From contig NZ_JAKZHU010000001.1 in the NCBI RefSeq assembly GCF_022568795.1, positions 558,001 to 622,000 of the forward strand: a stretch of 64,000 bases of DNA. The letters run 5' to 3'. The notes beneath the pieces were generated by a model. It searched no databases. It saw only the letters and a list, made by a program, of their open reading frames with translations, and was not told the DNA's origin. Below, one piece after another: positions 27,500-59,115 of this stretch. A program made the translations under genes and the position numbers. The DNA comes from Arsenicicoccus dermatophilus. GTDB lineage: Bacteria > Actinomycetota > Actinomycetes > Actinomycetales > Dermatophilaceae. Numbering within the stretch: the stretch's first letter is position 1; every line of letters starts with the position of its first letter.

Positions 27500-28579
<1,080 letters not shown>

Positions 28580-38715: not shown

Positions 38716-38788
38716 GCTGGAGTGGCGCAATCGGTAGCGCACCTGTCTTGTAAACAGGTGGTTGAGGGTTCGAGTCCCTTCTCCAGCT
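38716..38788 (+). tRNA. tRNA-Thr, anticodon TGT
   Basis: 73 bases fold as a cloverleaf. The acceptor stem is GCTGGAG (38716-38722) with CTCCAGC (38781-38787) and discriminator T. The anticodon loop is CTTGTAA with TGT at 38749-38751, and the T-arm contains GGTTCGAGTCC. CCA is not encoded. A TAGGAT about 50 bases upstream may be its -10. The 3' half is the attachment site of the integrative element that follows. Confidence 0.95.
38753..38774 (+). repeat. attL core in tRNA-Thr
   Basis: 22 bases from the anticodon loop to the T-loop of tRNA-Thr (begins AACAGGTGGTTGA) recur at 50462-50483 with one mismatch (A to C at position 13). Confidence 0.85.
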
Positions 38789-38808
38789 CTGTGAACTGCG
38801 GGTTCATC

Positions 38809-40029: not shown

Positions 40030-40032
40030 CGG

Positions 40033-40218
40033 TCAGGCCGCCTGCTGCTCGAGCCAGGCCATGATGTCGCTCTGGCGGAACCGCAGGTGACGGCCGACCT
40101 TGATGCCCTGGGGGCCGGCGTGCTTCCAGCGCCAGTCGTAGACGGTCTGCAGGGGGACGCCGAGGTAGTCGGCGAGGTCCTTGGCGGTCCACAGCGGGTC
40201 GATGCGGTGCGAGTTCAT
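40033..40218 (-). CDS. AlpA/Xis-like excisionase
   Basis: 61 residues forming a winged helix: PLWTAKDLADYLGVPLQTVY, then GIKVGRHLRFRQSDIMAWLE, the usual MerR/AlpA-like excisionase. I take ATG 40218, preceded by AAAGGG; the open frame continues upstream without need. It lies just before the integrase on the same strand and presumably directs excision. Confidence 0.85.
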   Translation of the reverse strand: MNSHRIDPLWTAKDLADYLGVPLQTVYDWRWKHAGPQGIKVGRHLRFRQSDIMAWLEQQAA

Positions 40219-40441
40219 GACGTGCCCTTTCGAGACGATGAGCGGTGACGGCGAAAAGTTGCCGTCACTCACCCATCGCTCGCAGAGCGCCGAAGCGGAC
40301 ACGAGATGGCCGTCTGGGCCCAAGTTCCACTCGAATGATGCATGTACGAGTCGGTTAGTCACGGGTCATGAGCAAGGAGATAGGGGGTCTGTCGGTACCT
40401 GCCTCTAGCCTGTGTATCCCTCAACACAGAAAGGCGACACC

Positions 40442-40738
40442 ATGACGAACTATCACGTCACTCCGCGCGACGACGGCTGGGCTGCGCACAAGGAAGGAGC
40501 CCAGCGGGCTTCGTCATTGCACCGAACGCAGGCCGAGGCCATTGACGCTGCACGCTCGTACGCATCCAGCCAGGGTGGGGGCGAGCTGAACATCCATGGA
40601 CGAGACGGCGGGATCCGCGCCAAGGACACGATCGCCCCGGCGCGGGATCCGCGATCGAGCAAGGGGGTCAAGTCCCGTGGGGTGGTGTTGTTTCAGGTGG
40701 TGATGGCGGTTGGGATGTTCTCGGTGGTGAGCGTGTAG
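40442..40738 (+). CDS. DUF2188 protein with IS-derived C-terminus
   Basis: The first 75 residues are a standard DUF2188: YHVTPRDDGWAAHKEGAQRA, ASSLHRTQAEAIDAARSYAS and GGGELNIHGRDGGIRAKDT. Family members end soon after DPRSSKG. Here the frame runs on into the IS256 end (from about 40672), adding SRGVVLFQVVMAVGMFSVVSV. The function of DUF2188 is unknown; it is frequent in mobile and stress loci. Confidence 0.75.
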   Translation: MTNYHVTPRDDGWAAHKEGAQRASSLHRTQAEAIDAARSYASSQGGGELNIHGRDGGIRAKDTIAPARDPRSSKGVKSRGVVLFQVVMAVGMFSVVSV

Positions 40739-42061
40739 AGCAGTCGTCGCATGCTGGTGTCTGACAGGTAGCGGCGTTCGCCGTACTGCCATTCCTCGTG
40801 CTGCTCGAGGAGGACGGCGCCGACGAGGCGGGTGACGCTGTCGCGGTTGGGGAAGACCTGGACGACGTCGGCGCGGCGTTTGATCTCGCCGTTGCAGCGT
40901 TCGACGGGGTTGTTCGACCAGATCTTCTTCCAGTGCTCGGTGGGGAACGCGGCGAACGCGGTCAGGTCGGCCTCGGCGTCGGCGAGCATGGCCGCGAGCT
41001 GGGGGAAGGAGGCCTGCAGGGACGCGGTGACCTGGTGATAGGTCTCCCGGACGGCCTCGGGGCTGGTCTGGGCGAAGATCGTGCTGACCAGGGCGTTAAC
41101 AGGCTTGGACCGGGCGGACCCGAGGACCTGGGTGATGTTGCGGGCGAAGTGGACCCGGCAGCGTTGCCACGCGGCGCCGGGCAGCACGGCCTTGACCGCG
41201 GCCTTCAGCCCGGCGTGGGCGTCGCTGATGACCAGGGCCACGCCCTGGGGGTGGGCCGGTGTGGAGGGCGTCAGGCCGCGGGTGCGCAGGGATCGTAGGA
41301 ACTCGGTCCAGAAGTCGGTGGACTCGCTGTCGCCGATGGCCATGCCGAGGATCTCGCGGCGCCCGGCGGCGGAGACCGCGATCGCGGTGACCACGGCCTG
41401 GGAGACGACCCGGCCGCCGTGACGGACGTCCAGATAGGTCGCGTCGAGGTACAGGTACGGGAACCACGTGTGGTCCAGGGACCGGGTCAGGAAGGCGTGG
41501 ACGGAGTCGTCGATGTCGGCGCAGATCCGGGACACGGTCGACCTGCTGATGCCGGTGTCGTTGCCCAGGGCCTTGACCAGGTCGTCGACCTTACGGGTGG
41601 AGACCCCGTCGATCCATGCGGTGCAGATCACGGCGTACAGGGCCTTGTCGACGCGTCGGCGTGGGTGCAGCAGGGAGGGGAAGAACGAGCCCTCGCGCAG
41701 CTTGGGGATGGCCAGGGTCAGCTCCCCGGCCGGGGTCGCCACGGTCTTGGGGCGGGTGCCGTTGCGGCGGGTCGTGCGATCTGGGGTCCGCTCGTAGCGG
41801 CCGGCGCCGATCTTGGCGGTAGCCTCGGCGTCGACGAGGTCTTGCAACCCGGCCTGCAGCAGCCGGCGGAACACGTCGTCGCGGGCCAGGTCAGGATCGG
41901 CGAGGAGTTCACCGACGAGCGCGGACAGGGCAGACTGGGGACGGGTCATCGCGGGTCCTTGGAGTTCTTGGCGGAATCCTGGAAGTACCCGCGATGACCC
42001 CCCTGAACAGCAGCAGCACCATCGCGGCGACCAGCGCGGGAATGCCACCACGCTATGGGAC
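40672..42061 (-). mobile_element. IS256-family insertion sequence
   Basis: About 1,390 bp. The ends show imperfect inverted repeats starting GTCCCGTGGGGTGGTG (40672) and GTCCCATAGCGTGGTG (inward from 42061). No 8-9-bp target duplication is found, which suggests deletion or rearrangement beside it. Encodes one transposase. Confidence 0.8.
40693..41949 (-). CDS. IS256-family transposase
   Basis: 418-residue DDE transposase of the MULE/IS256 type: YLYLDATYLDVRHGGRVVSQ (first Asp), ALVISDAHAGLKAAVKAVLP (second Asp), HWKKIWSNNPVERCNGEIKR (Glu) and the C/H motif WQRCRVHFARNI. ATG 41949 gives the normal length. It appears intact. Confidence 0.93.
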   Translation of the reverse strand: MTRPQSALSALVGELLADPDLARDDVFRRLLQAGLQDLVDAEATAKIGAGRYERTPDRTTRRNGTRPKTVATPAGELTLAIPKLREGSFFPSLLHPRRRVDKALYAVICTAWIDGVSTRKVDDLVKALGNDTGISRSTVSRICADIDDSVHAFLTRSLDHTWFPYLYLDATYLDVRHGGRVVSQAVVTAIAVSAAGRREILGMAIGDSESTDFWTEFLRSLRTRGLTPSTPAHPQGVALVISDAHAGLKAAVKAVLPGAAWQRCRVHFARNITQVLGSARSKPVNALVSTIFAQTSPEAVRETYHQVTASLQASFPQLAAMLADAEADLTAFAAFPTEHWKKIWSNNPVERCNGEIKRRADVVQVFPNRDSVTRLVGAVLLEQHEEWQYGERRYLSDTSMRRLLYTLTTENIPTAITT

Positions 42062-42383
42062 GCACCCTCCCCACCTGTGGTGACGGCGTCGTCGGGGGCC
42101 ATACGGTGATCCTCCCGGCGGCCTCGCGGACCGTCAAGTTTCGTCCCAACGAAACAATCGTCTCCAAATGCAAGAGGTGTGTCGGAATCGGGGAAGTTCT
42201 CGTGAGGCCAGCGCTGGGGTCGGGGAAATTGCGGGAGCAGTGGTGATGACAGGGCTGGAGTGGTGCGGTGGGTCGTGGGGATGCGCGAACGGGTGACGTC
42301 GCTCAGGCGCTTGGCTGAGGCAGGCCGAGGCTAGCTAACGTCGTGCGGACAAGGGGGAGTGCGGGGCGAGTAGGAGGGGCTGC
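42062..42383. other. Gap with a palindromic operator candidate and a cut ORF start
   Basis: 322 bases. GTTTCGT (42138-42144) and ACGAAAC (42149-42155) form an inverted repeat. On the minus strand an ATG at 42173 opens a frame (MHLETIVSLGRNLTVREAAG...) that runs into the IS256 after 37 codons and may be a truncated gene. Nothing else is seen. Confidence 0.45.
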
Positions 42384-42944
42384 ATGACGATCGGGAAGTT
42401 CTCGGCGGCGGCGCGAGAGGCGCTGGTGACCGCGTCGTCGCTGACGTGCGTCGACGTCGTCCAGGCGGCGCAGCCGGGGTTGTACGCCGTGCATGCGACG
42501 GTTGCCGCGCGACGCCAGCTCGGCATCGACGCCGACGCACCCCTGGTCTACCTCGGCAAGTCAGAGTCGAGCGTGCTGACGCGCGACGTGGGCTCTCACT
42601 TCGCGACAGGCCGCACCGGCCAGTCGACCCTGCGGCGCAGCCTCGCCGCGTTGCTGGCGGAGGACCTCGGGCTGGTGCCGGTGCCCCGGGGCGCGGGCAA
42701 GAATGCCGCGACGAACTACGCGCTGGCGCCCGATGGCGACGCCGCGTTGACGGAGTGGATGCGCGAGCACCTCACCCTCGCCATATGGCCCAAGCCTGTG
42801 GGCTGCCCACCGCTTGCTGAGGTAGAGCGGGAACTTCTGCGCGAGCTGGAGCCGGCCCTGAACCTCACCCACGTACCCCGGCCCTGGCGGGAGCTCAAGT
42901 CAGCGCGAGCGGCCATGGCCGCCCGGGCAAGGAAGGGATCCTGA
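42384..42944 (+). CDS. GIY-YIG-like nuclease family protein
   Basis: 186 residues. PGLYAVHATVAARRQLG and APLVYLGKSESSVLTRDVGS correspond to the GIY and YIG strands; HFATGRTGQSTLRRSLAALL continues the fold; the catalytic Glu may be in ELEPALNLTH near the end. Restriction, repair or mobile-element functions are possible. Its stop overlaps the start of a truncated ORF that meets the IS3 end. Confidence 0.7.
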   Translation: MTIGKFSAAAREALVTASSLTCVDVVQAAQPGLYAVHATVAARRQLGIDADAPLVYLGKSESSVLTRDVGSHFATGRTGQSTLRRSLAALLAEDLGLVPVPRGAGKNAATNYALAPDGDAALTEWMREHLTLAIWPKPVGCPPLAEVERELLRELEPALNLTHVPRPWRELKSARAAMAARARKGS

Positions 42945-43026
42945 TGACCGCAGACGAGACCGTGTGGCTGCCCGACGGAGGCGCTGCGGCGCGCGCCGTG
43001 GCAATCACCCTCCAAGGGGACTGCTG
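42943..43026 (+). pseudogene. 5' remnant of a gene cut by the IS3 element
   Basis: ATG 42943 overlaps the stop of the GIY-YIG gene (coupled start). The frame reads MTADETVWLPDGGAAARAVA and hits a stop just inside the IS3 left end. The rest of the gene is not found on the other side of the IS. Confidence 0.5.
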
Positions 43027-43084
43027 AAGATTTGGTTGACAGTCGACTTGTGGGGCCTTCGGGCCCTGCTGGAAGGATGTCAGC

Positions 43085-43384
43085 ATGCCTGCACCACACC
43101 CCAAGGAGTTCCGTGACGACGTGATCGCGGTCGCGCGTCGGGGCGAGGCGCCGATCGCTCAGATTGCGAAGGACTTCGGGATCAGCGAGTCATGTCTACG
43201 CCAGTGGCTTGCGAAGGCCTACGTGGAGGCCGGTGTCCGTCCCGGTACGACCGCGGCGGAGAACGCTGAGCTGAAGGAAGCTCGCCGCAAGATCCGCCTG
43301 CTGGAGCAGGAGAACGAGGTCCTGCGCCGCGCGGCCGCGTACCTGTCACAGGCGAACCTGAGGCTGGGCCAGTCCCCAAAATGA
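43085..43384 (+). CDS. IS3 transposase OrfA
   Basis: 99 residues: helix-turn-helix EAPIAQIAKDFGISESCLRQ and a leucine zipper (ELKEARRKIRLLEQENEVLR). Its stop overlaps the orfB ATG (ATGA at 43381). Confidence 0.92.
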   Translation: MPAPHPKEFRDDVIAVARRGEAPIAQIAKDFGISESCLRQWLAKAYVEAGVRPGTTAAENAELKEARRKIRLLEQENEVLRRAAAYLSQANLRLGQSPK

Positions 43385-43974
43385 TGTTCCCGCTGGTCAC
43401 CGACCTCGCCGCCGATGGCGTCCCGGTCGCGGTGTCCTGCGGGGTGCTGAAGTTCTCCCGCCAGGCCTACTACGCCTGGCTCGCGGACCCGGTCAGTGAC
43501 AGGGACCTGGTCGACGCGTACGCGATCAACGCGGCCCTGGACGTCCACGCCGATGACCCGGGGCTCGGGTACCGGTTCATCGCCGACGAGCTCGCCGCGG
43601 CCGGCCACCAGGTGTCCGAGCGACGGGTGTGGCGCCTGTGCAGCCAGGCGCGCATCACCAGCGCGCACTCGCGCAAGCGAGGCCGGGCGGCTCGTCCGGG
43701 ACCACCGGTCCATGACGACCTGGTCGAGCGTGACTTCACTGCGGACGCCCCGAACCGGTTGTGGCTCACCGATATCACTGAGCACCCCACCGGCGAGGGG
43801 AAGCTGTACCTGTGCGCGGTCAAGGACGTGTGGTCACGCCGGATCGTCGGGTACTCGATCAGCGACCGCATGACCACCAGCCTCGCTGTGGACGCCCTGA
43901 CCATGGCGGTCACGCGCAGGGGCGGCACTCGTGCCGTGACCGGCTGCACCATCCACTCGGACCGCGGCAGCCAG

Positions 43975-45473
43975 GGCGGATTCAACTGGTCGTCGCAACA
44001 CCCTGAGCAGGAGGGTGGTGCGGGTCGTGGCGACCGGGCATTGGAGCATGAGGACCGGCGATGTGCCCGAGGGGGTGCGTCGGCAGTGGCGTGCTGATCG
44101 GGCGTTGCGGCCGCCGATGCGTTCCCCGGGCCGTCCGCAGCCGTCGCGGGCGGTGCAGCGGGAGTTCTGGCGGGTGATCGCGACGGGGGTCACGACCGCG
44201 CAGGCCGCGTTGGTGGTGGGCGTGTCCGTGCCGGTGGGGATGCGGTGGTTTCGTCACGCTGGGGGGATGCCACCGCTGAGTCTTGGTGCCCCGTCCGGGC
44301 GGTATCTGTCGTTCGAGGAACGTGAGGAGATCGCGATCCTGCGTGCCCAGGGGGCGGGGGTGCGCTCGATCGCCCGACAGCTTCAGCGCGACCCGGGCAC
44401 GATCAGTCGTGAGCTGCGCCGCAACGCCGTTACCCGTGGTCATCGGTTGGAGTACCGGGCTGTCGTGGCGCAGTGGAAGGCTCAGGAAGCGGCCAAGCGG
44501 CCGAAGGTCGCGAAGATGGTCACGAACCCGCGGCTGCGCGCCTACGTCCAGGACCGGCTCGCCGGGCAGGTCTGCCACCCGGACGGCACGGTCGTGGCCG
44601 GCCCGGACGCCGGCGAGTGGAAAGGGTTGAACAAGCCCCGACGCGCTGACCGGCGCTGGTCGAGGGCGTGGAGCCCCGAGCAGATCAGCCAACGGTTGTC
44701 GATCGACTTCCCCGATGATGAAGGCATGCGCATCAGCCACGAGGCGATCTACCAGGCGTTGTACATCGAGGGTCGTGGCGCGCTCAGACGCGAGCTGGTG
44801 GCCTGCCTGCGTACCGGCCGAGCGCTGCGTCACCCGCGCGAGCGGTCCCGGAACAAGGCCCAGGGACACGTCACCCCCGACGTCGTCCTCAGCCAGCGGC
44901 CGCCTGAGGCCGCCGACCGGGCCGTGCCGGGGCACTGGGAAGGCGACCTGATCATCGGGACGGGCCGCTCGGCGATCGGGACGCTGGTCGAGCGGCACAG
45001 TCGCGCCACGATCCTGGTCCACCTACCCCGGCTGGAAGGGTGGGGCGAGCAGCCCCCGGCCAAGAACGGCACCTCACTGGGCGGGTACGGCGCCGTCGCG
45101 ATGAACCAGGCCCTCACGGCCGCGATCAGCGACCTGCCGCAGCAGCTGCGCACGACGATCACCTGGGACCGCGGCAAGGAGCTGTCCGGGCACGCCGCGT
45201 TCACGATGGCGACCGGCACCCGGGTGTTCTTCGCCGACCCACACTCGCCCTGGCAGCGGCCCACGAACGAGAACACCAACGGGCTGCTGCGCCAGTACTT
45301 CCCCAAGGGCACCGACCTGTCCCGCTGGACCGCGACCGACCTACAGGCCATCGCGTACACCCTGAACAACCGGCCCCGCAAGGTCCTCGGATGGAAGACA
45401 CCCGCAGAAGTGCTCGGCGAGCACTTACGATCGCTGGAACAAGCCGGTGTTGCATCGACCGGTTGAACCCGCC
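43975..45473 (+). mobile_element. IS30-family insertion sequence
   Basis: 1,499 bp with inverted ends of about 28 bp (GGCGGATTCAAC at the left, GGCGGGTTCAAC inward from the right). The target CAG is duplicated (43972-43974, 45474-45476). It sits inside IS3 orfB. Confidence 0.93.
44015..45466 (+). CDS. IS30-family transposase
   Basis: 483 residues. N-terminal helix-turn-helix parts (SFEEREEIAILRAQGAGVRS, LQRDPGTISRELRRN) and the DDE core with GHWEGDLIIGTGRSAIGTLV, ITWDRGKELSGHAAF and SPWQRPTNENTNGLLRQYFP. Intact from GTG 44015. Confidence 0.94.
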   Translation: MVRVVATGHWSMRTGDVPEGVRRQWRADRALRPPMRSPGRPQPSRAVQREFWRVIATGVTTAQAALVVGVSVPVGMRWFRHAGGMPPLSLGAPSGRYLSFEEREEIAILRAQGAGVRSIARQLQRDPGTISRELRRNAVTRGHRLEYRAVVAQWKAQEAAKRPKVAKMVTNPRLRAYVQDRLAGQVCHPDGTVVAGPDAGEWKGLNKPRRADRRWSRAWSPEQISQRLSIDFPDDEGMRISHEAIYQALYIEGRGALRRELVACLRTGRALRHPRERSRNKAQGHVTPDVVLSQRPPEAADRAVPGHWEGDLIIGTGRSAIGTLVERHSRATILVHLPRLEGWGEQPPAKNGTSLGGYGAVAMNQALTAAISDLPQQLRTTITWDRGKELSGHAAFTMATGTRVFFADPHSPWQRPTNENTNGLLRQYFPKGTDLSRWTATDLQAIAYTLNNRPRKVLGWKTPAEVLGEHLRSLEQAGVASTG

Positions 45474-45745
45474 CAGTTTCGTGCCCGCACCTACGTGTCC
45501 GCGCTGACAGCGCACGGCCTGACCGGGTCGATGGGGCGGGTCGGGACGAGCGCGGACAACGCCGCCATGGAGTCGTTCTTCGCCCTGCTGCAGAAGAACG
45601 TCCTCAACCAGCAGCGGTGGGCTACCCGTGACCAGCTACGCCTGGCCATCGTCACCTGGATCGAGAAGACCTACCACCGCCGACGCCGGCAGCGAGCCCT
45701 CGGCAAGTTCACCCCCATCGAGTTTGAGACCATCAACCAGACCGC

Positions 45746-46045
45746 TCACGCGGCCTGAAACACCACACCACCACCGTCAACCAGAACGACAGCAGTCCCG
45801 GTGAACGGGCGGATGAGGGTGGCAACGTATTTGAGACGTTCTTCGTCGACGCCCTCCAGCTCGTGGATGAACGCTGAGGTCCCGTCGCTGCGCATGCGGA
45901 GTGCGATTCGCATGCCCATCGATATGGCGGCCTCGGCTTGTGCCAGGTGGGACCCGAGAACCTTTCTGGTGCGCTCATCGGCAAGCACGATCCGGCGCGC
46001 GTGGCCGTCGTCCGTGTCGGGGAGGGGTTGGGTCTTGCGTGCCAT
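45746..46045 (-). pseudogene. Hypothetical gene truncated by IS3
   Basis: From ATG 46045 the frame gives MARKTQPLPDTDDGHARRIV and a helical domain to about ATLIRPFTGT. It then runs into the IS3 end, which supplies the last 15 residues. I do not recognise the family. The XRE gene lies 67 bases upstream on the same strand and may form an operon with it. Confidence 0.55.
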
Positions 46046-46111
46046 CGTTGACCTACTCGGATAGGGCGCCGGCGGCGATGGCCGTCGCAGACGACGTGTG
46101 GCTGGTCGCTG

Positions 46112-46408
46112 TCAGGTGAGGCTCGGCGAGATGACGCCTCCCCGGGCGTCGGTGGTGGCGTCGAGGAGTTCGGAGGCGGATGTCTCGAGCACGACGGCGA
46201 GATCGTCCAAGCGCTCGAACAGGACACCGCGTCGGCCGTGCTCCAGCTCGATGAGCTGGTTGCGGCTGAGCCCCGACTCCAGGGCCAGGGCCTCCTGGGT
46301 CAGCCCCAGCTCCTGACGGCGACGCCGCACATTCGCGCCCACCCGGATGCGCGCCTGTGCCCATCGCCGCTGGCGCTCTGGGTCGGCATCGTTTCGTCTC
46401 GCGGGCAC
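46112..46408 (-). CDS. XRE-family regulator of the element
   Basis: 98 residues with a classical helix-turn-helix: VGANVRRRRQELGLTQEALA, LESGLSRNQLIELEHGRRGV. It is divergent from the zinc-ribbon gene. A 14-bp palindrome over the start of that gene (46460-46473) is a likely operator, so it may be the element's repressor. Confidence 0.85.
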   Translation of the reverse strand: MPARRNDADPERQRRWAQARIRVGANVRRRRQELGLTQEALALESGLSRNQLIELEHGRRGVLFERLDDLAVVLETSASELLDATTDARGGVISPSLT

Positions 46409-46459
46409 CCAACGATGTCACGGTAACTGGGCTCAGAAGTCTGCCCCACTAGTAGTGCA

Positions 46460-46473
46460 TCATGAATTCATGA
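46460..46473. promoter_or_regulatory. Perfect palindrome over the zinc-ribbon start codon
   Basis: TCATGAATTCATGA, a full 14-bp palindrome, contains the ATG (46470-46472). It lies in the divergent region of the XRE gene. A bound repressor would block initiation. Confidence 0.5.
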
Positions 46474-46982
46474 GCGATGGTCCTCCGTCAGGGGCGGTGC
46501 GATTCGGGATCAAGGCCCGCTTCTCGGGTGTCTGCAGTCTGTGCGGCGAGCCGATCGAGGTGGGCGAGCGCATCTACCGGCTACCGAAGAAGAGGGCCGG
46601 CGCCGCCAGCGGGTGGGTCTGCGTTGCATGCCGCTTCCCTGATCCGGATCGCGTCGTGGATCTCGAGTTCGTCATCCGCAAGGTTGAGCACCGGCACGTG
46701 CGTGGGCCCTGTTACACGCCACGCATGGCCGAAGTCGACGTCATCGTGGATGCCTTCGACCGCGCTGGGCTGCTGACGACCGACGAACTGGTGCTGGGCG
46801 AGACGTTCGCGCAAGCGCGGATCAGCCGGCAATGCCCGGCCCTCGGACGCGCCAAGATGGCGACGCTGCTCGCTGTGCTCCGCCGTGCTGGCAGTAAGCC
46901 TGAGCGCGAGGCCGAGTGGGGGCTCAAGGCGGATCCCTGGCCTAGGCATGGGCTCTGTGCTGATTGGGAGCCGCCGCTGTAG
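46470..46982 (+). CDS. Zinc-ribbon protein of unknown function
   Basis: 170 residues. SGVCSLCGEPIEVGERIYRL and SGWVCVACRF supply two CxxC pairs, a small zinc ribbon. The rest (VDVIVDAFDRAGLLTTDELV, ISRQCPALGRAKMATLLAVL) is helical and not recognised. No ribosome-binding site is visible. The stop codon TAG (46980-46982) lies inside the first of three tandem 30-bp repeats. Confidence 0.7.
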   Translation: MSDGPPSGAVRFGIKARFSGVCSLCGEPIEVGERIYRLPKKRAGAASGWVCVACRFPDPDRVVDLEFVIRKVEHRHVRGPCYTPRMAEVDVIVDAFDRAGLLTTDELVLGETFAQARISRQCPALGRAKMATLLAVLRRAGSKPEREAEWGLKADPWPRHGLCADWEPPL

Positions 46983-47055
46983 AACCCGGCGGTTTGGGAG
47001 CCGCCGCTGTAGAACCCGGCGGTTTGGGAGCCGCCGCTGTAGAACCCGGCGGTCC
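46966..47055. repeat. Three tandem 30-bp repeats, each a hairpin
   Basis: Units at 46966, 46996 and 47026 begin GGGAGCCGCCGCTGTAGAAC and are identical apart from the last two bases of the third. Each has CCGCCG/CGGCGG arms around ten bases. They start in the 3' end of the zinc-ribbon gene and precede the DUF1016 gene. Confidence 0.95.
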
Positions 47056-47180
47056 CCGCCGCCACCGCGCCGATGGTGGCGCCACCTGCGGTCTTACCAT
47101 CCGAGTGCTCCTCGTGGAGGCCCACCGCTGGGCCGACGGCCGCTGAGGAGTGCGAGTGTGTCGAGGCCTAGGATCACGCC

Positions 47181-48230
47181 ATGTCGTCGCTGGAGCGGGA
47201 GCCGCAGGGATACGGGGATGTCCTCGCACGGGTGAAAGGTGAGATCCGTGCTGCCCGCACGCGTGCGCAGCGGGTCGTGAACACGCAGCTGCTGGAGCTG
47301 TACTGGGTCATCGGCCACTCCATCCTGGAGCGTCAGGAGAGCGAGGGCTGGGGGAGCAAGGTCGTAGACCGGTTCTCCGACGACCTGCGCGCGGAGTTCC
47401 CCGACATGAAGGGTCTTGGGCGGGCGAACGTGCACTCCATGCGGCGGTTCGCTGCGGCGTGGACTCGTGAGCAGATTGTCCAACAGGCTGTTGGACAACT
47501 CCCATGGGGGCACGTTGTAGAGCTCCTCACCCGGGTGCCCGACCCGGTCGTTCGGGACTGGTACGCCGAACAAGCTGTCTTGAACGTCTGGTCTCGGGCC
47601 GTGCTGCACCACCAGATTGCCACGCGCCTGCACGAACGGCTGGGCGCGGCGCTGGTGAACTTCGATCGCCGCCTTGACGAGGGTGACTCGGCTCGCGCCA
47701 CCCAGATCATCAAGGACCCGTACGTCTTCGACTTCCTCGCCCTGGACACGCGCGCCACCGAGCGCGACCTCGAGCAGGCCCTTATGGACCGCATCACGGA
47801 CACCCTGCTCGAGCTGGGCCGCGGGTTCGCCTTCGTCGGCCGGCAGGTCCACTTCGACGTCGATGGCAACGACTTTTACGCCGACCTGGTCTTCTTCCAC
47901 GTCGAACAGCTGCGGTACGTCGTGGTCGAGCTCAAGATCGACCACTTCCGGCCCGAGCACGCCGGCCAACTGGGTTTCTACGTCGCTCTCGTCGACGACA
48001 AGCTTCGCAACCCGGACTTGCACGCACCCACGATCGGGCTGTTGCTGTGCGCGACTCGGTCAGACGCGGTGGTCCGGTATGCCCTGGCCAACAGCAGCGC
48101 CCCCATGGCGGTGGCGGACTACACCACCCAACCCAGTGCTGCGTCCCAGATGCGCCTGCCTAGCCCTGAGGAGCTCGAAGCCATCGTCGACGCCACCCTC
48201 GACGCTACGCCCGAGGCAGCCTCCGAGTGA
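47181..48230 (+). CDS. DUF1016 (YhcG) PD-(D/E)XK nuclease-like protein
   Basis: 349 residues. The N-terminal DUF1016 domain (VVNTQLLELYWVIGHSILER, FPDMKGLGRANVHSMRRFAA, QLPWGHVVELL) is followed by the nuclease domain (from about 185) with FAFVGRQVHFDVDGNDFYAD, LVFFHVEQLRYVVVELKIDH and GQLGFYVALVDDKLR, which holds the D...ExK core. YhcG proteins travel with mobile elements; function unproven, with defence or partner-modulating roles proposed. ATG 47181. Confidence 0.92.
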   Translation: MSSLEREPQGYGDVLARVKGEIRAARTRAQRVVNTQLLELYWVIGHSILERQESEGWGSKVVDRFSDDLRAEFPDMKGLGRANVHSMRRFAAAWTREQIVQQAVGQLPWGHVVELLTRVPDPVVRDWYAEQAVLNVWSRAVLHHQIATRLHERLGAALVNFDRRLDEGDSARATQIIKDPYVFDFLALDTRATERDLEQALMDRITDTLLELGRGFAFVGRQVHFDVDGNDFYADLVFFHVEQLRYVVVELKIDHFRPEHAGQLGFYVALVDDKLRNPDLHAPTIGLLLCATRSDAVVRYALANSSAPMAVADYTTQPSAASQMRLPSPEELEAIVDATLDATPEAASE

Positions 48231-48303
48231 CGTTCTGCCGCGGGGGCAGTCCGTAGCCGGCGGGCAGTGCCCGGAGAGCGGCGGGCGGCTCGACCGCTGT
48301 AGG

Positions 48304-50286
48304 TCACGTGTGCGTGGAGGAGGTGCCGGGCGGTCGATTGCCTCCTCGGATTGGGGCCAGTACCGTTGCCGTACTCGCTCGCACGTTTCGTCGTGCGAGA
48401 TCGGGGCCGGGTGCGCACGTGCCCGGCCCTTTGTCATGTGCCGTCCAGTCCTCACCCGGGCGGCGGACAGCCAACCCGTGGCCTGACGATGCCGCAGGTC
48501 GGCGATGCCCCTCGCCGCGCGGTGGAGCGGCCAGGCGGGCGCCCGGGCGCCGGGCCGGCCGGGTGGATGCCCGGCGGGACGCTGCACGGGTCGTAGTCCC
48601 GCGGTAGCGGAGCCGCTCGGCGGAGACGGCTGCGCTCCTGACGGCGTGAACTCGCTCGCTCTCGGCGCGTGCGGTCTCGTTCGGTGTGAGCAGGCGCAGC
48701 CACGTGCCGTCTGGGAGGCACTGGGCGAATCCGGCGGCGGCGAGTGCGCGCAAGGCGTGGACGAGGGTGCGCCGCTGGCTGGTGGTCAGGGGGGTCTCGG
48801 GGGAGTGGGTCACCTGGGCGGCGTGCGCCAGTGCCTCGAGGTCCAGCGGGGCGTCGAGGCTGAGGGCCCGCAGCACCATGTACGTGATGCGCGGGCTGCC
48901 CTGGGGGACCTTGCGGGCGAGGGGGGTGAGATAGAAACGAGGTGGAGGGATTTCCGTCACCCCTCGCAGGTCCACCGAGGCGATCGAAAACTCGTAGCTC
49001 GAGCTGTCGGGGGCGCCGACCGGGTCGAAGCAGTCGGTGTGGAGCGTGCCGACGACGCCGTCGAGGGTGCGTAGGTGCTTCGCGATGGTCTTCCGGTCAG
49101 TGATGCCGGTGTCCAGGACGATGTCGCGCTGCGGCACGGGAACGCGAAGGGAGCCCGTGCGCTCGATGCGGTCGAGGACGGTGTGGCCGATCGTCAGCAA
49201 TGCCGGCCGCTCCCGGGTCGACGTGGACCACGCGAGGCTCTGCAGCCGCATCCTTGCCTGCTCGACGGCCACCCGGACCTCGGCGGACGGCTCGTCGCGC
49301 GGCCTCGTCCGCTTCATCGGGTCGGCCTGTGCTCGCCAGACGGTGTCCGTCTCGACGGCCTTGTTCCACTGCCATCGCACCCACCAGGCGGGGTTACGAC
49401 GGGCGTGCGACATCGCCTCCGGGTGGGCGGTCGCGATGGCCTCACGCGCGTCGTCGACCGTGTAGCCGGCACGGACCATCGCAGCGGTGGCCATCAGCTC
49501 GTAGGTGGAGTTCGACGAGTCGACGCTCTCGTCAAGCATCTTGTCCCACAACGGCTTTCGACCGGTGGCGAGGTAGGTCGCCCACTGGTCGTCGAGGGCG
49601 CGGCGTCGACGGGCGGTCGGCACCAGAGGTGCGTCCGTGTCGAGGATGCTGCGCTGCACGCCGGTCAGCCGGCTCCGTGAGCGGGTTCTCTTTCCGGTGC
49701 CCGCCTTGTGGCGAGAGCTCCCGCGGCGATGGCGGCTCGTCGGGGCTCCAGCTCGCGCCCACGGGTGGTTGGTGAGCTCGTCGAGCAGTCGAGCAGGGTC
49801 GCCGAAGGGCCGGTGCATGACGCCGGTGCGGTGCGGCGCGCTCAGCGGTCGCACCCACTCGCGCACATCGATTGTGGACCTCGAGGCGCCGAGGCTCCTT
49901 CGCCAGTCGCTGAGGAAGGCCTCCAGCTCGTCGCGGCATCGCCCCGCCGTGACGAAGACGTGGCCACGGCCGGCGGCGCCCCCGGACTCACGGCTCAGGT
50001 GCCACAGCCCCCGGTCGGTGGCCCACCGGGTCACGGCATCCATGACGGCGTAGCCGGCGTGTCCCGGCAGGTCGACGTCGACGGCAACGACCTCAGCCCG
50101 CAGGCAGCCGACGATCGACGCCACCCGGCCCTGGCCCGCCAACGCCAAGCCGGCACCGAGGGAGGTGACCACCACGCCGGGCACCCGCTTGTTGTCCGCG
50201 TCCAGCGCGAACCAGTCGCGGGCGTCGAAGAGCACCTCGTCGAGAGCACTCCACGGCGTCCCGACGACGGCACCGCGCGCGGTCAC
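48304..50286 (-). CDS. Primase-like replication protein of the element
   Basis: 660 residues. The N-terminus (about 60-130) contains AEVVAVDVDLPGHAGYAVMD with a DxD pair and RESGGAAGRGHVFVTAG, the pattern of archaeo-eukaryotic-type primase (bifunctional primase-polymerase). The middle (about 330-530) has winged-helix features (VPQRDIVLDTGITDRKTIAK; LEALAHAAQVTHSPETPLTT). The last 110 residues are Arg/Pro/Gly-rich and probably disordered. It likely starts replication of the excised element. GTG 50286 is the start used; no clear ribosome-binding site. No helicase motif was noticed. Confidence 0.7.
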   Translation of the reverse strand: MTARGAVVGTPWSALDEVLFDARDWFALDADNKRVPGVVVTSLGAGLALAGQGRVASIVGCLRAEVVAVDVDLPGHAGYAVMDAVTRWATDRGLWHLSRESGGAAGRGHVFVTAGRCRDELEAFLSDWRRSLGASRSTIDVREWVRPLSAPHRTGVMHRPFGDPARLLDELTNHPWARAGAPTSRHRRGSSRHKAGTGKRTRSRSRLTGVQRSILDTDAPLVPTARRRRALDDQWATYLATGRKPLWDKMLDESVDSSNSTYELMATAAMVRAGYTVDDAREAIATAHPEAMSHARRNPAWWVRWQWNKAVETDTVWRAQADPMKRTRPRDEPSAEVRVAVEQARMRLQSLAWSTSTRERPALLTIGHTVLDRIERTGSLRVPVPQRDIVLDTGITDRKTIAKHLRTLDGVVGTLHTDCFDPVGAPDSSSYEFSIASVDLRGVTEIPPPRFYLTPLARKVPQGSPRITYMVLRALSLDAPLDLEALAHAAQVTHSPETPLTTSQRRTLVHALRALAAAGFAQCLPDGTWLRLLTPNETARAESERVHAVRSAAVSAERLRYRGTTTRAASRRASTRPARRPGARLAAPPRGEGHRRPAASSGHGLAVRRPGEDWTAHDKGPGTCAPGPDLARRNVRASTATVLAPIRGGNRPPGTSSTHT

Positions 50287-50324
50287 GCCGCGGGCGGGAT
50301 CGGCGGGGTGTCTTCACCTCGCAT

Positions 50325-50348
50325 CCATCTTTTTGCCCACCTCTTTGA
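50325..50348 (+). repeat. Right arm-type sites
   Basis: CCATCTTTTTGC (50325-50336), identical to the left arm site at 38849, followed in tandem by a diverged copy CCACCTCTTTGA. The T-runs stand out in this GC-rich DNA. It is 126 bases inside attR. Confidence 0.65.
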
Positions 50349-50461
50349 GCCCGAGGTGGTCGGATCGCATCCGAGGCCGGGCGAGATGATCAGAGAAAGA
50401 CGCGCAGGTGAGACGGGATTTTCGGGAGCCAGCCGAACTTCGCCGAAGCTCGGCTCTGAAT

Positions 50462-50483
50462 AACAGGTGGTTGCGGGTTCGAG
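50462..50483 (+). repeat. attR core
   Basis: 21 of 22 bases equal the tRNA-Thr segment 38753-38774. The flanking tRNA sequence is not continued, so this is the displaced remnant. Confidence 0.85.
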
Positions 50484-50544: not shown

Positions 50545-52055
50545 TCACCAGACGCGGTAGCTCGCCCTCGCCAGCCGCAGGCCGTGCGGGCCGTCCTTGC
50601 ACTCGACGTACGACGTCGTGGACGTGCAGGTGGCCGTGCCCAGGACGCGGGACTGGCCGTACGGCAGCACCACTCCCCGCGGAGCCGGAGTCGCGGGCGG
50701 GCAGGTGAGGGCGGCCGGACGGTTGTGGATCATCTCGACCGTGCTGCCCCAGCGCTTCGCGGCCCGGCAGGCCGCAGGTGCCGCCGGCGCCCGGTAGTCG
50801 TGCTCGGTGATGGTGCACCGGACTCCGGACCCCGTGCCCCAGCAGGTGATGTTGCCCGAGGGCATGGTGAGGGCGGCAGGTGGAGCCGCACCCGCCGACG
50901 GCGACGACGTCGGCGTCTGCGACGAGGTGCTTGACAGGGTGCTCACGCCCCGCCAGATCGCGGCCACGGAGGGGGCGACCACCGCGAGGAGCACCAGGGC
51001 GATGACGGCGAGCAGGCAACCCCGACCGGTCCGGCCGAGGACGGCACCGCGCCGCGGGGCGGCTGCGGAGGACGGCGCCGGCGGGACGGGAGCGGAGGAG
51101 GGCGCCGGCGGGACGGGAGCGGAGGAGGGCGCCGGCGGGGCGGGAGGGAGGGTGATCGGGACGGTGGCGCTCGACGCCGGCTGGGACGAGGCCGGCGGGG
51201 TCGGGGGCACCGCGGCGGCGGGTCGCGTCGGCGCTGCGGCCGTGGGTGGGGGTGGCGCGACCGGCTGCCTCGGCCCCGGCGCCGGCTGCACCGGCTCGAT
51301 CGGCTGCACCGGCAGCGGCTGCGTGCGGCTCGGGCGCTCGGCCGCCACCGAGGCGCGCACGCAGGATCGCGGCTCGAACCCCTCGGCCCGCAGTGCCTCC
51401 TCGCTCGGGCGCACGCCGGCCGGCAGGCCGATGATGTCGCAGAAGGTCGCCACCGACTCCAGGTCCCAGTCCCGGTTTCGCCGGTCTCGGCCGAGCGCGT
51501 GGAAGTAGCCGCGCAGGGGGCCGACGTTCGCGCCGTGGTCGCTGCTGCTGCTGGGGACGTACGGCCGATGGGCCACGACGGTGACCTGGTGCCGGTCCTC
51601 GGCGAAGTCGAGGGAGCCGGGAGGGGGAGACGCAGCGTGGAGGCCGGCGCCTTCGCGTGCTGGGACAGGACGATCAGCGCGGGGATGAAGGCGGACGGCA
51701 GCGGCGTGGTCGGGTGCTCGCGCAGCATCCCGCCCAGCTGCTTGGCGTAGCCCTCCGCCTGGCCGATGGGGTTGATCTCTCCCTCGCGCAGGAACAGGTC
51801 CATCGGGCGCCCGTCCGCGGTCCAGGGGCCCTGCAGCGGAGCCTCGACGAGACCACCCGTGTCGCCCCGAATCCCCTTGACCTCCAACACGACGCAGCCG
51901 TGCGGGGTGAGCACCAGGAGGTCGACGTGGGCGGGTTTGTTCGGCCCGACGAGCATGAGGCCCCGGATCGGCTCTGCCCCCGGGCGGTCCTTGAGGGCGG
52001 CGGCGACACGGCGCTCGGCGTCGCTCTCCGGCAGACGGATCGGTATGACGAGCAT
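50545..52055 (-). pseudogene. NERD-domain membrane protein gene with one frameshift
   Basis: ATG 52055 opens a NERD nuclease-related domain: LVGPNKPAHVDLLVLTPHGC, VVLEVKGIRGDTGG, INPIGQAEGYAKQLGGML. Near 51621-51627 (a C run on this strand) the frame is lost. The next frame supplies the expected continuation GSLDFAEDRHQVTVVAHRPY and runs to 50545 through a Pro/Ala/Ser linker, a membrane helix (GCLLAVIALVLLAVVAP) and a secreted-type domain with four Cys. Adding one base restores a 503-residue protein. It is a true mutation or a sequencing error in a homopolymer. Confidence 0.82.
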
Positions 52056-52095
52056 GCGGTCACCGTAGGGCGTCCCCTGCGTGACGCCGTCATCG

Positions 52096-52117
52096 GGTCA
52101 CCGAAAGGTCATCCGCA
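52096..52117 (+). promoter_or_regulatory. PHO-box-like direct repeat, proximal to NERD gene
   Basis: GGTCACCGAAA then GGTCATCCGCA: two 11-base units. The second fits the actinobacterial PHO unit G(G/T)TCAYYYR(G/C)G at ten of eleven positions, the first at eight. It is 41 bases upstream of the NERD start. Confidence 0.5.
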
Positions 52118-52233
52118 TCAACGGTGTTCGACGTCAGGGATCGGGGTTGCGGCGAGCGGTCGACGACGCCGAGGAGCCTCCGGGGCGAGGGCTGCGACCG
52201 ACCGCGGCCGGGACGCTGACGTCGTGGCCCAGA

Positions 52234-52255
52234 GTTCACCCATTGTTCACCCAGG
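52234..52255 (+). promoter_or_regulatory. PHO-box direct repeat upstream of the NAS-like gene
   Basis: GTTCACCCATT then GTTCACCCAGG, 11 bases apart. The second unit fits the published PHO consensus at all eleven positions and the first at nine. It lies about 216 bases before ATG 52472. Confidence 0.68.
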
Positions 52256-52471
52256 GGAGGAGGTCGGGCAGGACCTCCGGTGCTAGACGGCCCTGGCCGA
52301 AGATCTTGCGTATCGTTGCCGTAGGGCCCCAGCAGTATTTTCGGCATTCGTCAGGTAACTGCTCAGCGAACGCACAGACTTGTGCACGACAGGCCCGAAA
52401 GGCATGACCTCTATCACAGAGCGCACCTCTCGGCGCGAGCGCCGGGGCGCTTCTCCGTACGGTCCCGAGAC

Positions 52472-53368
52472 ATGAGCCCTCAGCGATACATCAACCGGAT
52501 CAGCACGATTCGACGTGAGCTGCATCGGACGGACCTGCGCCCCAGCCCCACCGTCGACGCCCTCTTCTCCGAGCTGGTGGACATGGTCCTCACGGCACCA
52601 CCCGGACTCTTCCCCGCGGTGCACGAAGGTCTCGGGCCGGCCGCCGTCGACGACCTGCGTGAGCTGTGCGGCCGCGGGGAGACCCGGCTGGAGACAGCCT
52701 GGGCCCGGCGCCTGCTCGAGGCGCGCGACCCCTTCGAGACGCTCGAGGAGTTCCCCTACCTCGACAACTACCGCCGGCTGACGCGTCTGGAGCTGTCCGC
52801 CCTGCATGCGGCAGGCTCGCGCGTCCGCTCCGTGACGATGATCGGCTCCGGCCCGCTCCCGCTGACCGCGGTGGTGCTCGCCATGGAGCTCGGCATCACC
52901 GTCACCGTCGTGGACCGGGATCCGCACAGCCTGGCCTACGGCCACGACGTGATCCGGGCCCTCGGCCTGGGCCGCCAGATCACCTCGCACCTGGGCGACG
53001 CCACCGCCGGCCACCTGCCCGTCGGCGGCAGCGACGCGGTGATCCTCGCGGCGCTCGTCGGCGCCGACGCCGAGGCCAAGGCCAAGATCATGACGGCCAC
53101 CGCCCGGGCCATGGCGGCCGACAGCCACCTGCTCGTCCGCTCGGCGGCCGGGATGCGGGCCCTGCTCTACTGCCCCTTCGACCTGCACGAGGAGGGGATC
53201 CCCGCCATCGGGACCGCCCTGACCCCCGTCCTCGAGGTGCATCCCCACGACGACGTGGTCAACTCCGTGGTCGTCTTCCGGCGCGCCGCGCACGCGACGT
53301 CGGGGGAGCCCTCAGGCGCGCCGGAGCGGGATCTCGAGGTGGACCGTCGACAGGCGCGGATCGCCTGA
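52472..53368 (+). CDS. Nicotianamine synthase-family protein (CntL-like)
   Basis: Joins aminobutyrate units from S-adenosylmethionine to make nicotianamine-type metallophores (plant NAS, bacterial CntL). 298 residues with the family pattern: LRPSPTVDALFSELVDMVL, CGRGETRLETAWARRLL, LEEFPYLDNYRRLTRLELSA and the SAM-binding VRSVTMIGSGPLPLTAVVLA. The last is the most diagnostic. ATG 52472 is preceded by a frame that continues upstream without support. It overlaps the convergent GNAT gene by 57 bases. No histidine racemase (CntK) or opine dehydrogenase (CntM) gene is nearby, so the product may be a nicotianamine-like compound without the opine step (inference). Confidence 0.82.
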   Translation: MSPQRYINRISTIRRELHRTDLRPSPTVDALFSELVDMVLTAPPGLFPAVHEGLGPAAVDDLRELCGRGETRLETAWARRLLEARDPFETLEEFPYLDNYRRLTRLELSALHAAGSRVRSVTMIGSGPLPLTAVVLAMELGITVTVVDRDPHSLAYGHDVIRALGLGRQITSHLGDATAGHLPVGGSDAVILAALVGADAEAKAKIMTATARAMAADSHLLVRSAAGMRALLYCPFDLHEEGIPAIGTALTPVLEVHPHDDVVNSVVVFRRAAHATSGEPSGAPERDLEVDRRQARIA

Positions 53369-53863
53369 GGTGTCCCGCTCGTCGAGGACCACCCGCCCCC
53401 CGAGGGCCGTCCAGAAGTCGACGGCCCCGGGGTACCGCGCGTTCGTGTGCAGGTAGAGCACGCTCGCCTCGTGGTCCCGTCGTGCCGCGTCGATCAGCTG
53501 CTCGACGACCCTGCGAGCAAGCCCCTGACGGCGGGCCCGGGGGTCCGTGGCCACGCGGACGACCTGGAGCACGCGCCGAGGGTCCGGGTAGCGCTGTCGG
53601 AGCGGGAGGCAGGTCTGCGGGAAGCCCACCCGGAGGCCGCCGCAGGCGAGCACCTGACCGTCGGCGACAGCGACCAGCATGAGGTTGCGGCGGGTCAGCA
53701 CATAGGTCTCGTAGGCGAGGTCGAGGTCACGGTGCCACACCGGGTCGTAGCCGTAGCCCAGGTCCTGCAGGTTGACCCGGTGCACGAGGCTGCGAGCGGC
53801 GTGGATCTCGGCGGGGGTGGTGGCGACACGGATCTGCGTGGTCGTGTCGGCGACTGCGGTCAT
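53312..53863 (-). CDS. GNAT-family acetyltransferase
   Basis: 183 residues. The acetyl-CoA loop is QVVRVATDPRARRQGLARRV (about 98-117), with LYLHTNARYPGAVDFWTALG for the C-terminal strand/helix. Its 3' end overlaps the NAS-like gene on the opposite strand. The substrate is unknown; acting on a metallophore is possible only by proximity. Confidence 0.85.
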   Translation of the reverse strand: MTAVADTTTQIRVATTPAEIHAARSLVHRVNLQDLGYGYDPVWHRDLDLAYETYVLTRRNLMLVAVADGQVLACGGLRVGFPQTCLPLRQRYPDPRRVLQVVRVATDPRARRQGLARRVVEQLIDAARRDHEASVLYLHTNARYPGAVDFWTALGGRVVLDERDTSGDPRLSTVHLEIPLRRA

Positions 53864-57249: not shown

Positions 57250-59115
57250 TCAGCGCTCGGCGTAGGCGTTGAGGTAGGAATCCTCGCCGCGACGCTGCAG
57301 CCGCAGCAGCTCGGCATACACCCCGTCGGTCGTCGCGAGCTGCGCGGGCGAGCCGATCTCGTCGACCAGACCGTCCTTGATCGTCACGATCCGGTCGACA
57401 CCGGCGATGGTGGACAGCCGGTGCGCGATCACCAGCGAGGTGCGGCCGCGCATCAGCTCCTCCAGGCCGGCCTGCACCAGCCGCTCGGAGCGGGTGTCGA
57501 GCGCCGACGTGGCCTCGTCCAGCACCAGCACCGACGCGTCCTTGAGCATGGCCCGCGCCACGGCGATGCGCTGCTTCTGGCCGCCGGACAGCTTGAGGCC
57601 GCGCTCGCCGATCAGCGCGTCGTAGCCGCCGTCGAGCCGCCCGACGAAGTCGCTGGCGTTGGCCCGGTCGGCGGCCAGCGCCACCTCGGCGGCCGTCGCG
57701 TGCTCCGCGCCGTAGCGGATGTTCTCGCCCACCGTGTCGGAGAACAACGAGGGGTCCTGGAAGACGATGGACACCTTGCGCCGCAGCTCGACCGGGTCGA
57801 GCGTGGCGATGTCCACCCCGTCGACCCGGATCTGCCCGGCCCGCAGCGGATAGAGCCCGAGGAGCAGGTTGACCAGGGTGGTCTTGCCGCCCCCGGACTC
57901 GCTGACCAGAGCCACCCGCTCGCCCCGGCGCACGTCGAAGGTCACGTCCCGCAGCACGTCCGGCCCGTCGCCATACCCGAACCGCACGTCGTCGAACTCG
58001 ATCACCGCGGGCGCCTCCGGCAGGTCCACCAGGACCGTGGGGTGCGCCACCGGCTCGGGCGGCGCGACCGCGGCCGGCACCCGCGCCGGGACCTCCGCGG
58101 CCGCCATCACGCGGAAGTAGTCCCGCGACCCCGCCACCGCCCGCTGGCCGGCGTCGATGACCCAGCTCATCATCTCGACGGGCATCCGGGCCATGGTGAT
58201 CAGCTGGATCAGCAGCACCAGCTCGCCGACGCTGAAGCGCCCCCGCACGGTCTGCCAGAAGATCAGCAGGTACATCATCGCGAAGGTCACGTTGAGCACC
58301 GCGCGCCGCAGCACGTCCATGGCGTGCCAGTGCCGGGCCTGCGCCCGCGTCGTGTCGTAGGTGTGGTCGAAGTGCTCGGTGAAGGTCGCCAGCTCGTGGC
58401 GCTCGCGGGTGAACGACCGCACCACCCGGATCTGGCTGACGACCTCCGCGAACCGCCCGCCGGCGGTGTCGATGTGGGCGTTCTTGTCGCCCTCGTGGGC
58501 CTGCCAGCGCCGTGACGTGAGCCCGGTCAGCCAGACATAGGTGGGGAAGACGACGACCAGGAGCACGGCGAGCGGCCAGTAGTAGATCGCGCTGATCACG
58601 AGCACCGCGGTGGTCTGGACCAGCAGGGTGATGAAGGTGTTGGACAGCGACTTGGCGAACTGGCTGATCTCGGTGATCGAGCGGTTGAGCCGGCTGACGA
58701 TGGTGCCGGTCATCTCCTCGTCGAACCAGCTCTGCGGCAGCCGGAGCAGCTTGTCCAGGTAGCGCGTCGACAAGATCGCGCGGATCTGGTTGGACAGCAC
58801 GTCACCGTGGTAGCCGCCGACGTTGGACACCACCGTGCTGACGAGCTCGCTGGCGAGGATGCCGAGCGCGAACCACACCAGCGTCGGCATGGCGTCGGTG
58901 CCCCGGTGGTCGCGCACCGCCGTGACGATGGTGTCGGTCGCCCGCCCCACGAGGAAGGGCGTCGCGATGCCGGCCGCCGCGGTCACCAGGGCGCACAGCG
59001 CCACCACGGCGTAGTACGGCCGCAGCTCGCGGGTGAAGCGGACGATCCTGGTCAGGCTCGCGACGGTGCCGGGCTCGCCGGCCTCCTGCGGGCGCGGCGC
59101 AGCTGCTGGGTTCAC
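57250..59115 (-). CDS. ABC exporter, fused membrane and ATPase domains
   Basis: 621 residues. Six helices in the N-terminal 330 residues; the ATPase has Walker A SESGGGKTTLVNLLLG (the first Gly of GxxGxGK is Ser), signature LKLSGGQKQRIAVARA, Walker B VLVLDEATSALD and His LVIAHRLSTI. Type IV exporter, homo- or heterodimer. The Walker A change is mild and family-known variants exist. The cargo is unknown. Confidence 0.9.
   Translation of the reverse strand: MNPAAAPRPQEAGEPGTVASLTRIVRFTRELRPYYAVVALCALVTAAAGIATPFLVGRATDTIVTAVRDHRGTDAMPTLVWFALGILASELVSTVVSNVGGYHGDVLSNQIRAILSTRYLDKLLRLPQSWFDEEMTGTIVSRLNRSITEISQFAKSLSNTFITLLVQTTAVLVISAIYYWPLAVLLVVVFPTYVWLTGLTSRRWQAHEGDKNAHIDTAGGRFAEVVSQIRVVRSFTRERHELATFTEHFDHTYDTTRAQARHWHAMDVLRRAVLNVTFAMMYLLIFWQTVRGRFSVGELVLLIQLITMARMPVEMMSWVIDAGQRAVAGSRDYFRVMAAAEVPARVPAAVAPPEPVAHPTVLVDLPEAPAVIEFDDVRFGYGDGPDVLRDVTFDVRRGERVALVSESGGGKTTLVNLLLGLYPLRAGQIRVDGVDIATLDPVELRRKVSIVFQDPSLFSDTVGENIRYGAEHATAAEVALAADRANASDFVGRLDGGYDALIGERGLKLSGGQKQRIAVARAMLKDASVLVLDEATSALDTRSERLVQAGLEELMRGRTSLVIAHRLSTIAGVDRIVTIKDGLVDEIGSPAQLATTDGVYAELLRLQRRGEDSYLNAYAER

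Follow-up and report, generated by a model that had tools for sequence, protein, structure and literature searches.

A stand-alone nicotianamine synthase gene of Arsenicicoccus dermatophilus lies downstream of a PHO-type box and may be under phosphate control

The window analysed here, a 64,000-nt stretch of Arsenicicoccus dermatophilus DNA (contig NZ_JAKZHU010000001.1, positions 558,001 to 622,000), carries a nicotianamine synthase (NAS) gene with a PHO-type box in its upstream region. We tentatively propose that this stand-alone, acquired NAS has been put under the phosphate two-component regulator and is made at phosphate shortage, a reading that we consider quite possible and just short of probable. 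A phosphate-controlled NAS had been suggested by the initial annotation; the PHO-type box and the fold and active site of the enzyme are sustained by the present analysis, which did not find the box upstream of the homologues examined. NAS genes and PHO boxes are each of a known kind; searches of the open-licence literature, in the portions available, showed no combination of the two in a bacterium.

The NAS gene occupies 52472–53368 on the forward strand and encodes 298 residues from a start refined to the ATG at 52472, near which the alignment of homologues begins. The protein, initially annotated on a NAS signature, matches PF03059 with 163.9 bits (cut-off 27.1) over profile positions 8–273 of 276, and combines a helical N-terminal domain with a Rossmann domain that binds S-adenosylmethionine (SAM), as in the NAS fold. 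Its Glu74 and Tyr100, invariant in 43 sequences, align with Glu81 and Tyr107 of MtNAS, an enzyme from what we take to be Methanothermobacter; Glu81 is named as catalytic by the E81Q structure entries, and Tyr107 is presumably catalytic too. The NAS active site that was looked for is present together with the fold and, on family, fold and active-site residues, the window protein is a NAS. It would make a nicotianamine-type product from SAM, the exact nature of which we infer. The codon use of the gene is well adapted (GC3 of 0.92), which speaks for a live gene. A 23-codon ORF at 52404–52475 (+) ends in a TGA that overlaps the NAS ATG (ATGA), with no well-spaced ribosome site in front, and translational coupling between the two is possible. 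At its 3' end, NAS overlaps by 57 nt a convergent GNAT acetyltransferase gene (53312–53863, −; PF00583, 47.4 bits).

The PHO box GTTCACCCATTGTTCACC lies at 52234–52251 (+) and is composed of two 11-nt direct repeat units, with the exact 8-mer GTTCACCC at 52234 and 52245. Two 11-nt GTTCACC-type units upstream of the gene on its coding strand are the mark of a Pho-regulon box, and GTTCACC is the PHO core published for Streptomyces (PMC4415409, in the part available). A second, weaker 11-nt pair, GGTCACCGAAAGGTCAT, stands at 52096–52112 (+), with GGTCAC and GGTCAT at 52096 and 52107; both pairs were recovered exactly where the initial annotation had placed them. The exact pattern GTTCACCN4GTTCACC occurs twice in the genome (3.52 Mb, 11 contigs), against no occurrence of the reversed pattern, and is present in 3 of 8 family genomes searched; allowing up to two mismatches gives 44 sites, compared with 4 in the reversed control. 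Neither the exact box nor two loose pairs on the forward strand arose in any of 20,000 Markov-1 resamplings of the 416-nt upstream region. The loose form GTTCACN5GTTCAC (at most two mismatches) is found six times in the window, against 2.73 ± 1.47 expected, and as many matches were reached in 4 of 100 shuffles; loose matches within the window alone are thus not clearly in excess, so that the exact pair carries the weight of the box evidence. The box repeats are directed towards NAS and lie 220 nt from its ATG, the corresponding distances elsewhere, measured to ORF starts as called, being about 76 nt for pstS, 94 nt for phoX, 59 nt for ppk2 and 163 nt for phoU. The orientation of the box favours NAS as its target; the distance does not. 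No sigma-70 consensus promoter was found in 52056–53400.

Fourteen of the 44 loose matches were opened, representing 13 distinct places, one of which is the NAS site. Three of the 12 others are plain phosphate genes with the box upstream on the same strand, namely pstS (L090; TIGR00975, 279 bits), the phosphatase gene phoX, which is preceded by three repeat units (L082/L097; PF05787, 348 bits), and the polyphosphate kinase 2 gene ppk2 (L084; TIGR03707, 364 bits); the remaining places show no obvious phosphate gene. The genome's other exact box (L078) falls within the 3'-terminal part of a DUF1501 gene and precedes, by 115 nt, a same-strand ORF of 199 aa; given this position, a box by itself is no proof of a target. 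Within the window, a PHO-like array of three 11-mers (GTTCACGTGCG, GTCCTCGGCTC and GTTCACGCGCC) lies at 17556–17588 (−), upstream of phoU (16709–17392, −; TIGR02135, 193.2 bits, cut-off 130.25), with GTTCAC 11-mers at 17588 and 17566 and a weaker unit between them. The occurrence of the same boxes at pstS, phoX and ppk2, together with the 11-mers of phoU, bears out the earlier description of the NAS box as PHO-type.

Beside phoU, the window encodes a senX3-like histidine kinase of the PhoR/PnpS group (17650–18888, +), whose best NCBIfam matches, PnpS with 246.7 bits and PhoR with 235 bits, are both below the equivalog cut-offs, and a regX3-like response regulator of the OmpR/PhoB type (18927–19607, +), matched by the YycF, MtrA and PhoB models with 235–254 bits, again all below the equivalog cut-offs. 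Since the scores fall under these cut-offs, the names senX3 and regX3 rest on the gene order beside phoU, and it is this position that points to SenX3–RegX3 as the phosphate regulator. The regX3-like protein is the likely reader of the NAS box. We regard as improbable that the box drives NAS but is read by some other regulator, such as an oxygen-responding PolR-like or an MtrA- or GlnR-like protein of the OmpR type, in response to a signal that is not phosphate. The response regulator PolR of Microlunatus does footprint on GTTCACnnnnnGTTCaC (excerpts of PMC6754071), and the window contains a second OmpR-type winged-helix regulator (2397–3155, −) whose receiver part is unusual and which looks GlnR-like by eye; however, pstS, phoX and ppk2 have the same box upstream in this genome, and the senX3–regX3–phoU set is present in the window. 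A further alternative concerns the NERD-domain gene (50943–52055, −; PF08378, 39.9 bits), which is divergent from NAS and has its upstream region in common with it. The box could belong to NERD, or to no gene in use, with NAS transcribed from an ordinary or metal-controlled promoter nearer to its start. We consider this unlikely but worth keeping in view, as the box stands between the two genes, at 178 nt from the NERD start, the weaker pair is at only 41–57 nt from the latter, and the NAS homologues examined have no PHO box. Against it, the repeats read towards NAS, in the same way as the pstS, phoX and ppk2 boxes are all on the coding strand; NERD is apparently frameshifted near 51.6 kb, with an N-terminal part at 50943–52055 and a protein-like continuation in another frame at 50545–51576; and no NERD gene was found in the 10 relatives searched. 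The two parts together span 50545–52055 (−); the continuation is rich in proline and alanine, and 27-nt repeats lie at 51054–51146.

A search for the same box upstream of homologues, the check put forward in the initial annotation, gave none with at most two mismatches, neither in 33 upstream regions nor in a set of 49 taken from named loci, the best match being at three mismatches in both sets; the test itself is passed by 1 of 490 random 500-mers. The first set left out the partial or weak L004, L018, L019, L040 and L041 and the duplicate L016, and the second comprises 49 of 51 named loci; the sets overlap, several genomes of the first being also among the named loci (L166 is the same gene as L039). 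Start codons in the homologues were chosen by rule, so that upstream ends are approximate, and L005 and L127 contributed 177 nt only. As no full-length NAS was found in any other family genome searched, the lack of the box in homologues marks the wiring as local and is no demonstration that the box is inert. Bacterial nicotianamine-like metallophores are generally thought to be metal-controlled. Zur-type palindromes, for which we take the consensus to be TGAAAATGATTTTCA, were found with at most two mismatches upstream of NAS in 4 of the 49 named loci (Nocardiopsis salina, N. coralli, Allosalinactinospora and Tamaricihabitans) and in 1 of the 33 regions (Nocardiopsaceae, L039/L166), against 2 of 490 random 500-mers from the 49 named loci. 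By these tests, most NAS relatives show neither a PHO nor a Zur box, and some of them look metal-controlled. The window NAS has no Zur-type box in 52056–52480, where the best match has seven mismatches; elsewhere in the genome, Zur/Fur-type boxes give 12 matches at 10 places (at most three mismatches) against none in the control, and some of the six places opened adjoin CobW-, FecCD- and ABC-transporter genes.

Several observations were made on the starts of NAS genes in the relatives. The Jiangellaceae motif TGAACATGAATCTCA, considered as a Zur box with three mismatches, was rejected, being the coding start of MNMNLI or MNMSLT. In Phytoactinopolyspora (L123, L126, L128, L138 and L144), NAS is preceded by an out-of-frame leader of 25–52 codons that starts with MNMNLI and whose TGA overlaps, in all five loci, an ATG or GTG that is in frame with NAS, and in Jiangella and its kin the MNMSLT start is fused in frame to NAS. 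A perfect palindrome, CCTTATTGCGACTCAGTCGCAATAAGG, lies directly upstream of NAS in a Micrococcales MAG (L003/L162).

With regard to its distribution, a full-length match to NAS was obtained in the own genome only among 186 genomes of the family, up to 12 candidates being scored per genome. Twelve other family genomes match the window NAS weakly, with at most 24.8 bits over 64–94 residues. Pfam models, applied at 10 of these 12 places, identified seven zinc-type dehydrogenases, two ribosomal L11 proteins and one methyltransferase-like protein, none of which passed the NAS cut-off, and the weak matches L184 and L188, outside the Pfam scan, resemble dehydrogenases by eye. This methyltransferase-like protein, of genome G006 (L004, 1216–2223, −) scores 23.4 bits against the NAS cut-off of 27.1, and is perhaps a very distant NAS-like enzyme. 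Full-length NAS is present in 15 of 396 genomes of the order and 22 of 394 of the class, own genome included, each sample being drawn evenly from the larger group. A contig scan with the single NAS protein gave no relatives, and with the alignment as query it gave the 51 named loci, including Jiangella, Phytoactinopolyspora, Nocardiopsis, Kineosporia, Promicromonospora and Sorangium; among plasmids, six records (Halocatena and Arsenophonus) match at 30–36% identity. The highest identity to the window NAS is 45% over aligned rows and 47% for the best tblastn segment. In a tree of 46 rows, built without L116, L126, L138 and part of the Promicromonospora rows, no starred clade includes the window protein, which ends a branch of 1.13 and has no firm place. 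On these comparisons, NAS is rare and probably horizontally acquired, and the NAS tree of PMC12454661, in the portion available, is rooted in Actinobacteria.

The gene order around NAS was compared with eight stretches from six relatives, in which the only plausible counterparts of the neighbours are the GNAT gene (42–45% identity, two stretches) and an aldehyde dehydrogenase gene (57–71%, six stretches), the two not being adjacent; all other matches are apparently paralogous. Upstream of the NAS region, an island at tRNA-Thr (38716–38789) extends over 38716–50483, with an integrase-like gene at 38809–40029 (−) recognised by eye, transposase-like genes at 40693–45758 seen by eye in the ORF lists and, as its right end, a 22-nt copy of the tRNA-Thr end at 50462–50483 with one mismatch. 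That NAS is cargo of this island was rejected as the simplest reading, the right end being about 2 kb before NAS.

The neighbourhoods of NAS in the relatives are diverse. An Opp-type ATPase, a family-5 solute-binding protein and an MFS pump are encoded near NAS in 5 of the 51 named loci, which belong to four Nocardiopsaceae and one Saccharopolyspora. An ATP-grasp L-amino-acid-ligase-like gene directly follows NAS in Pyxidicoccus and in 14 named loci of Jiangella, Phytoactinopolyspora, Haloactinopolyspora and the related MAG L136, Pfam having been run on four of the ligase-bearing loci (L116–L119, L123, L126, L128, L129, L136, L138, L139, L141, L144, L151 and L153); from this gene order, the product in the Jiangellaceae-type and Pyxidicoccus loci is perhaps an aminoacylated nicotianamine. 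In Sorangium cellulosum So ce26 (L137, 7052–10010), NAS is flanked on the same strand by genes for a PhyH dioxygenase and a class I/II aminotransferase, as if these were to tailor its product, for which the synthesis of mugineic acid in grasses offers a comparison. In another relative (G068 contig), the NAS neighbour at 4043–4918 of L051 has DUF1980 domains, and DUF1980 genes are often under Zur control. Neighbour genes were obtained with a home-made caller, which missed NAS itself in 3 of 20 stretches and sometimes called antisense frames. Neither the ligase nor the transporter set is seen beside NAS in the window: no such ATP-grasp ligase was found in the window, the nearest ABC-transporter-like gene (57250–59115) is 3.9 kb away from NAS, and the ATPase, pump and binding protein of Nocardiopsis, used as tblastn queries, matched there only a distant ATPase at 27893–28555.

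The absence of cntK and cntM partners had led the initial annotation to suggest a perhaps new pathway, a suggestion that the comparison does not support. In 72 loci (the window, 20 stretches of 11–20 kb and the 51 named loci of up to 17 kb), a single CntM yardstick protein found no CntM-like sequence better than E 2.8, and none was detected by tblastn in the window; the CntM model PF10100 has no match in the own genome and likewise none in 14 control genomes. Among the relatives retrieved, NAS usually stands alone, with no CntM in its vicinity. Archaeal NAS functions in the absence of CntM. So does that of plants and mosses (PMC12454661, in part). The zincophore map of PMC7438024, as described in the available portion, was built from CntM and finds only zincophores that need a CntM homologue, and the window NAS is the kind of gene that such a map leaves out.

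We propose the following mechanism. The horizontally acquired NAS would join aminobutyrate units from SAM into a nicotianamine-type chelator, and its promoter would have come, in this lineage, under SenX3–RegX3 or an equivalent reader of the GTTCACC repeats. At low phosphate, RegX3 would bind the box and activate NAS, not NERD, together with PstS, PhoX and polyphosphate kinase 2. With the depletion of phosphate and polyphosphate, both of them metal binders, metals would be freed, and nicotianamine would act as an internal metal buffer. By analogy, we take this buffer to be the most likely purpose, the supply of metals to phosphatases, PhoX included, being the main alternative; that no transporter stands directly beside NAS fits an internal role and is no proof of it. 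Passages of PMC4411997 describe phosphate as a very efficient iron chelator and report for Arabidopsis that phosphate starvation induces NAS3, to a lesser degree in phr1 phl1, the induction of NAS3 and of the ferritin gene FER1 passing through PHR1 or PHR1/PHL1. In Streptomyces, according to the available part of PMC9739823, 11 coelichelin siderophore proteins were detected in S. lividans and were more abundant at low phosphate; the coelibactin zincophore proteins of S. coelicolor and S. lividans reached a higher abundance at high phosphate than at low, a result that runs counter to the phosphate control proposed for NAS. The long distance from box to start, the lack of box conservation and the boxes elsewhere without a phosphate gene also stand against the proposal.

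Two alternatives bear on the product. It is possible, if less than probable, that it is not an internal buffer but a secreted metallophore, serving to acquire zinc or iron for phosphatases or to release the phosphate bound in metal phosphates. The transporter genes of the four Nocardiopsaceae and the Saccharopolyspora, the Zur-type boxes of Nocardiopsaceae and Tamaricihabitans, and the PHO box of phoX in the own genome are in line with secretion; the lack of such a transporter set beside the window NAS and the tblastn result speak against it. Rather unlikely, in our view, is that the enzyme makes an aminobutyryl compound other than nicotianamine, for example with a different acceptor. NAS relatives do vary in this respect, since thermonicotianamine was present in crystals of MtNAS and CntL acts as a D-histidine aminobutanoyltransferase, and the ligase-like gene of the Jiangellaceae-type and Pyxidicoccus loci points in the same direction. 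That ligase, however, is absent from the window, and Tyr100, at the place of MtNAS Tyr107, is kept here and not in CntL. Moreover, moss NAS genes of fungal or bacterial origin are associated with the same metabolite as in flowering plants (PMC12454661, in part), which supports nicotianamine as the product without proving it for the window enzyme.

If the proposed phosphate control of NAS holds, it would link the phosphorus and trace-metal economies in bacteria, as in plants, in a simple, testable system of one gene, one box and one regulator, and the purpose of stand-alone actinobacterial NAS enzymes would become directly testable. Among known systems, the thermonicotianamine synthase MtNAS (PDB 3FPE and 3FPJ) has 25% identity to the window NAS, and no report of its control by phosphate was found. 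CntL of staphylopine synthesis (PDB 7C9M) has 17% identity in the fold alignment; the window protein, in which Tyr100 is kept, scores 29.1 bits against the cut-off of 350 for the CntL model NF033601, which places it outside that equivalog, and the window has no match to the CntM partner. The NAS of Nocardiopsaceae (Nocardiopsis salina and others) is of the same family, with 40–42% identity and likewise no CntM-like match nearby, but has its own importer ATPases, solute-binding protein, MFS pump and Zur-type boxes, whereas the window NAS is an orphan with a PHO box. This box, with two exact GTTCACC units at 11-nt spacing, is like those of Streptomyces PhoP and Microlunatus PolR, the known targets of which are, in the sources as available, phosphate and polyphosphate genes; NAS did not appear as a target in the literature searched. 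The closest parallel in wiring is Arabidopsis NAS3 under PHR1/PHL1, which is alike in tying a NAS gene to phosphate starvation, as proposed for the window NAS, and different in having a plant regulator in place of a two-component system, so that the resemblance would be convergent. A broader hypothesis, which we hold to be doubtful, is that bacteria independently wired nicotianamine synthesis into the phosphate-starvation response, as a metal buffer for times of exhausted phosphate and polyphosphate and by promoter capture after horizontal transfer of a gene that in some relatives stands behind Zur-type boxes, in the manner of the PHR1-dependent NAS3.
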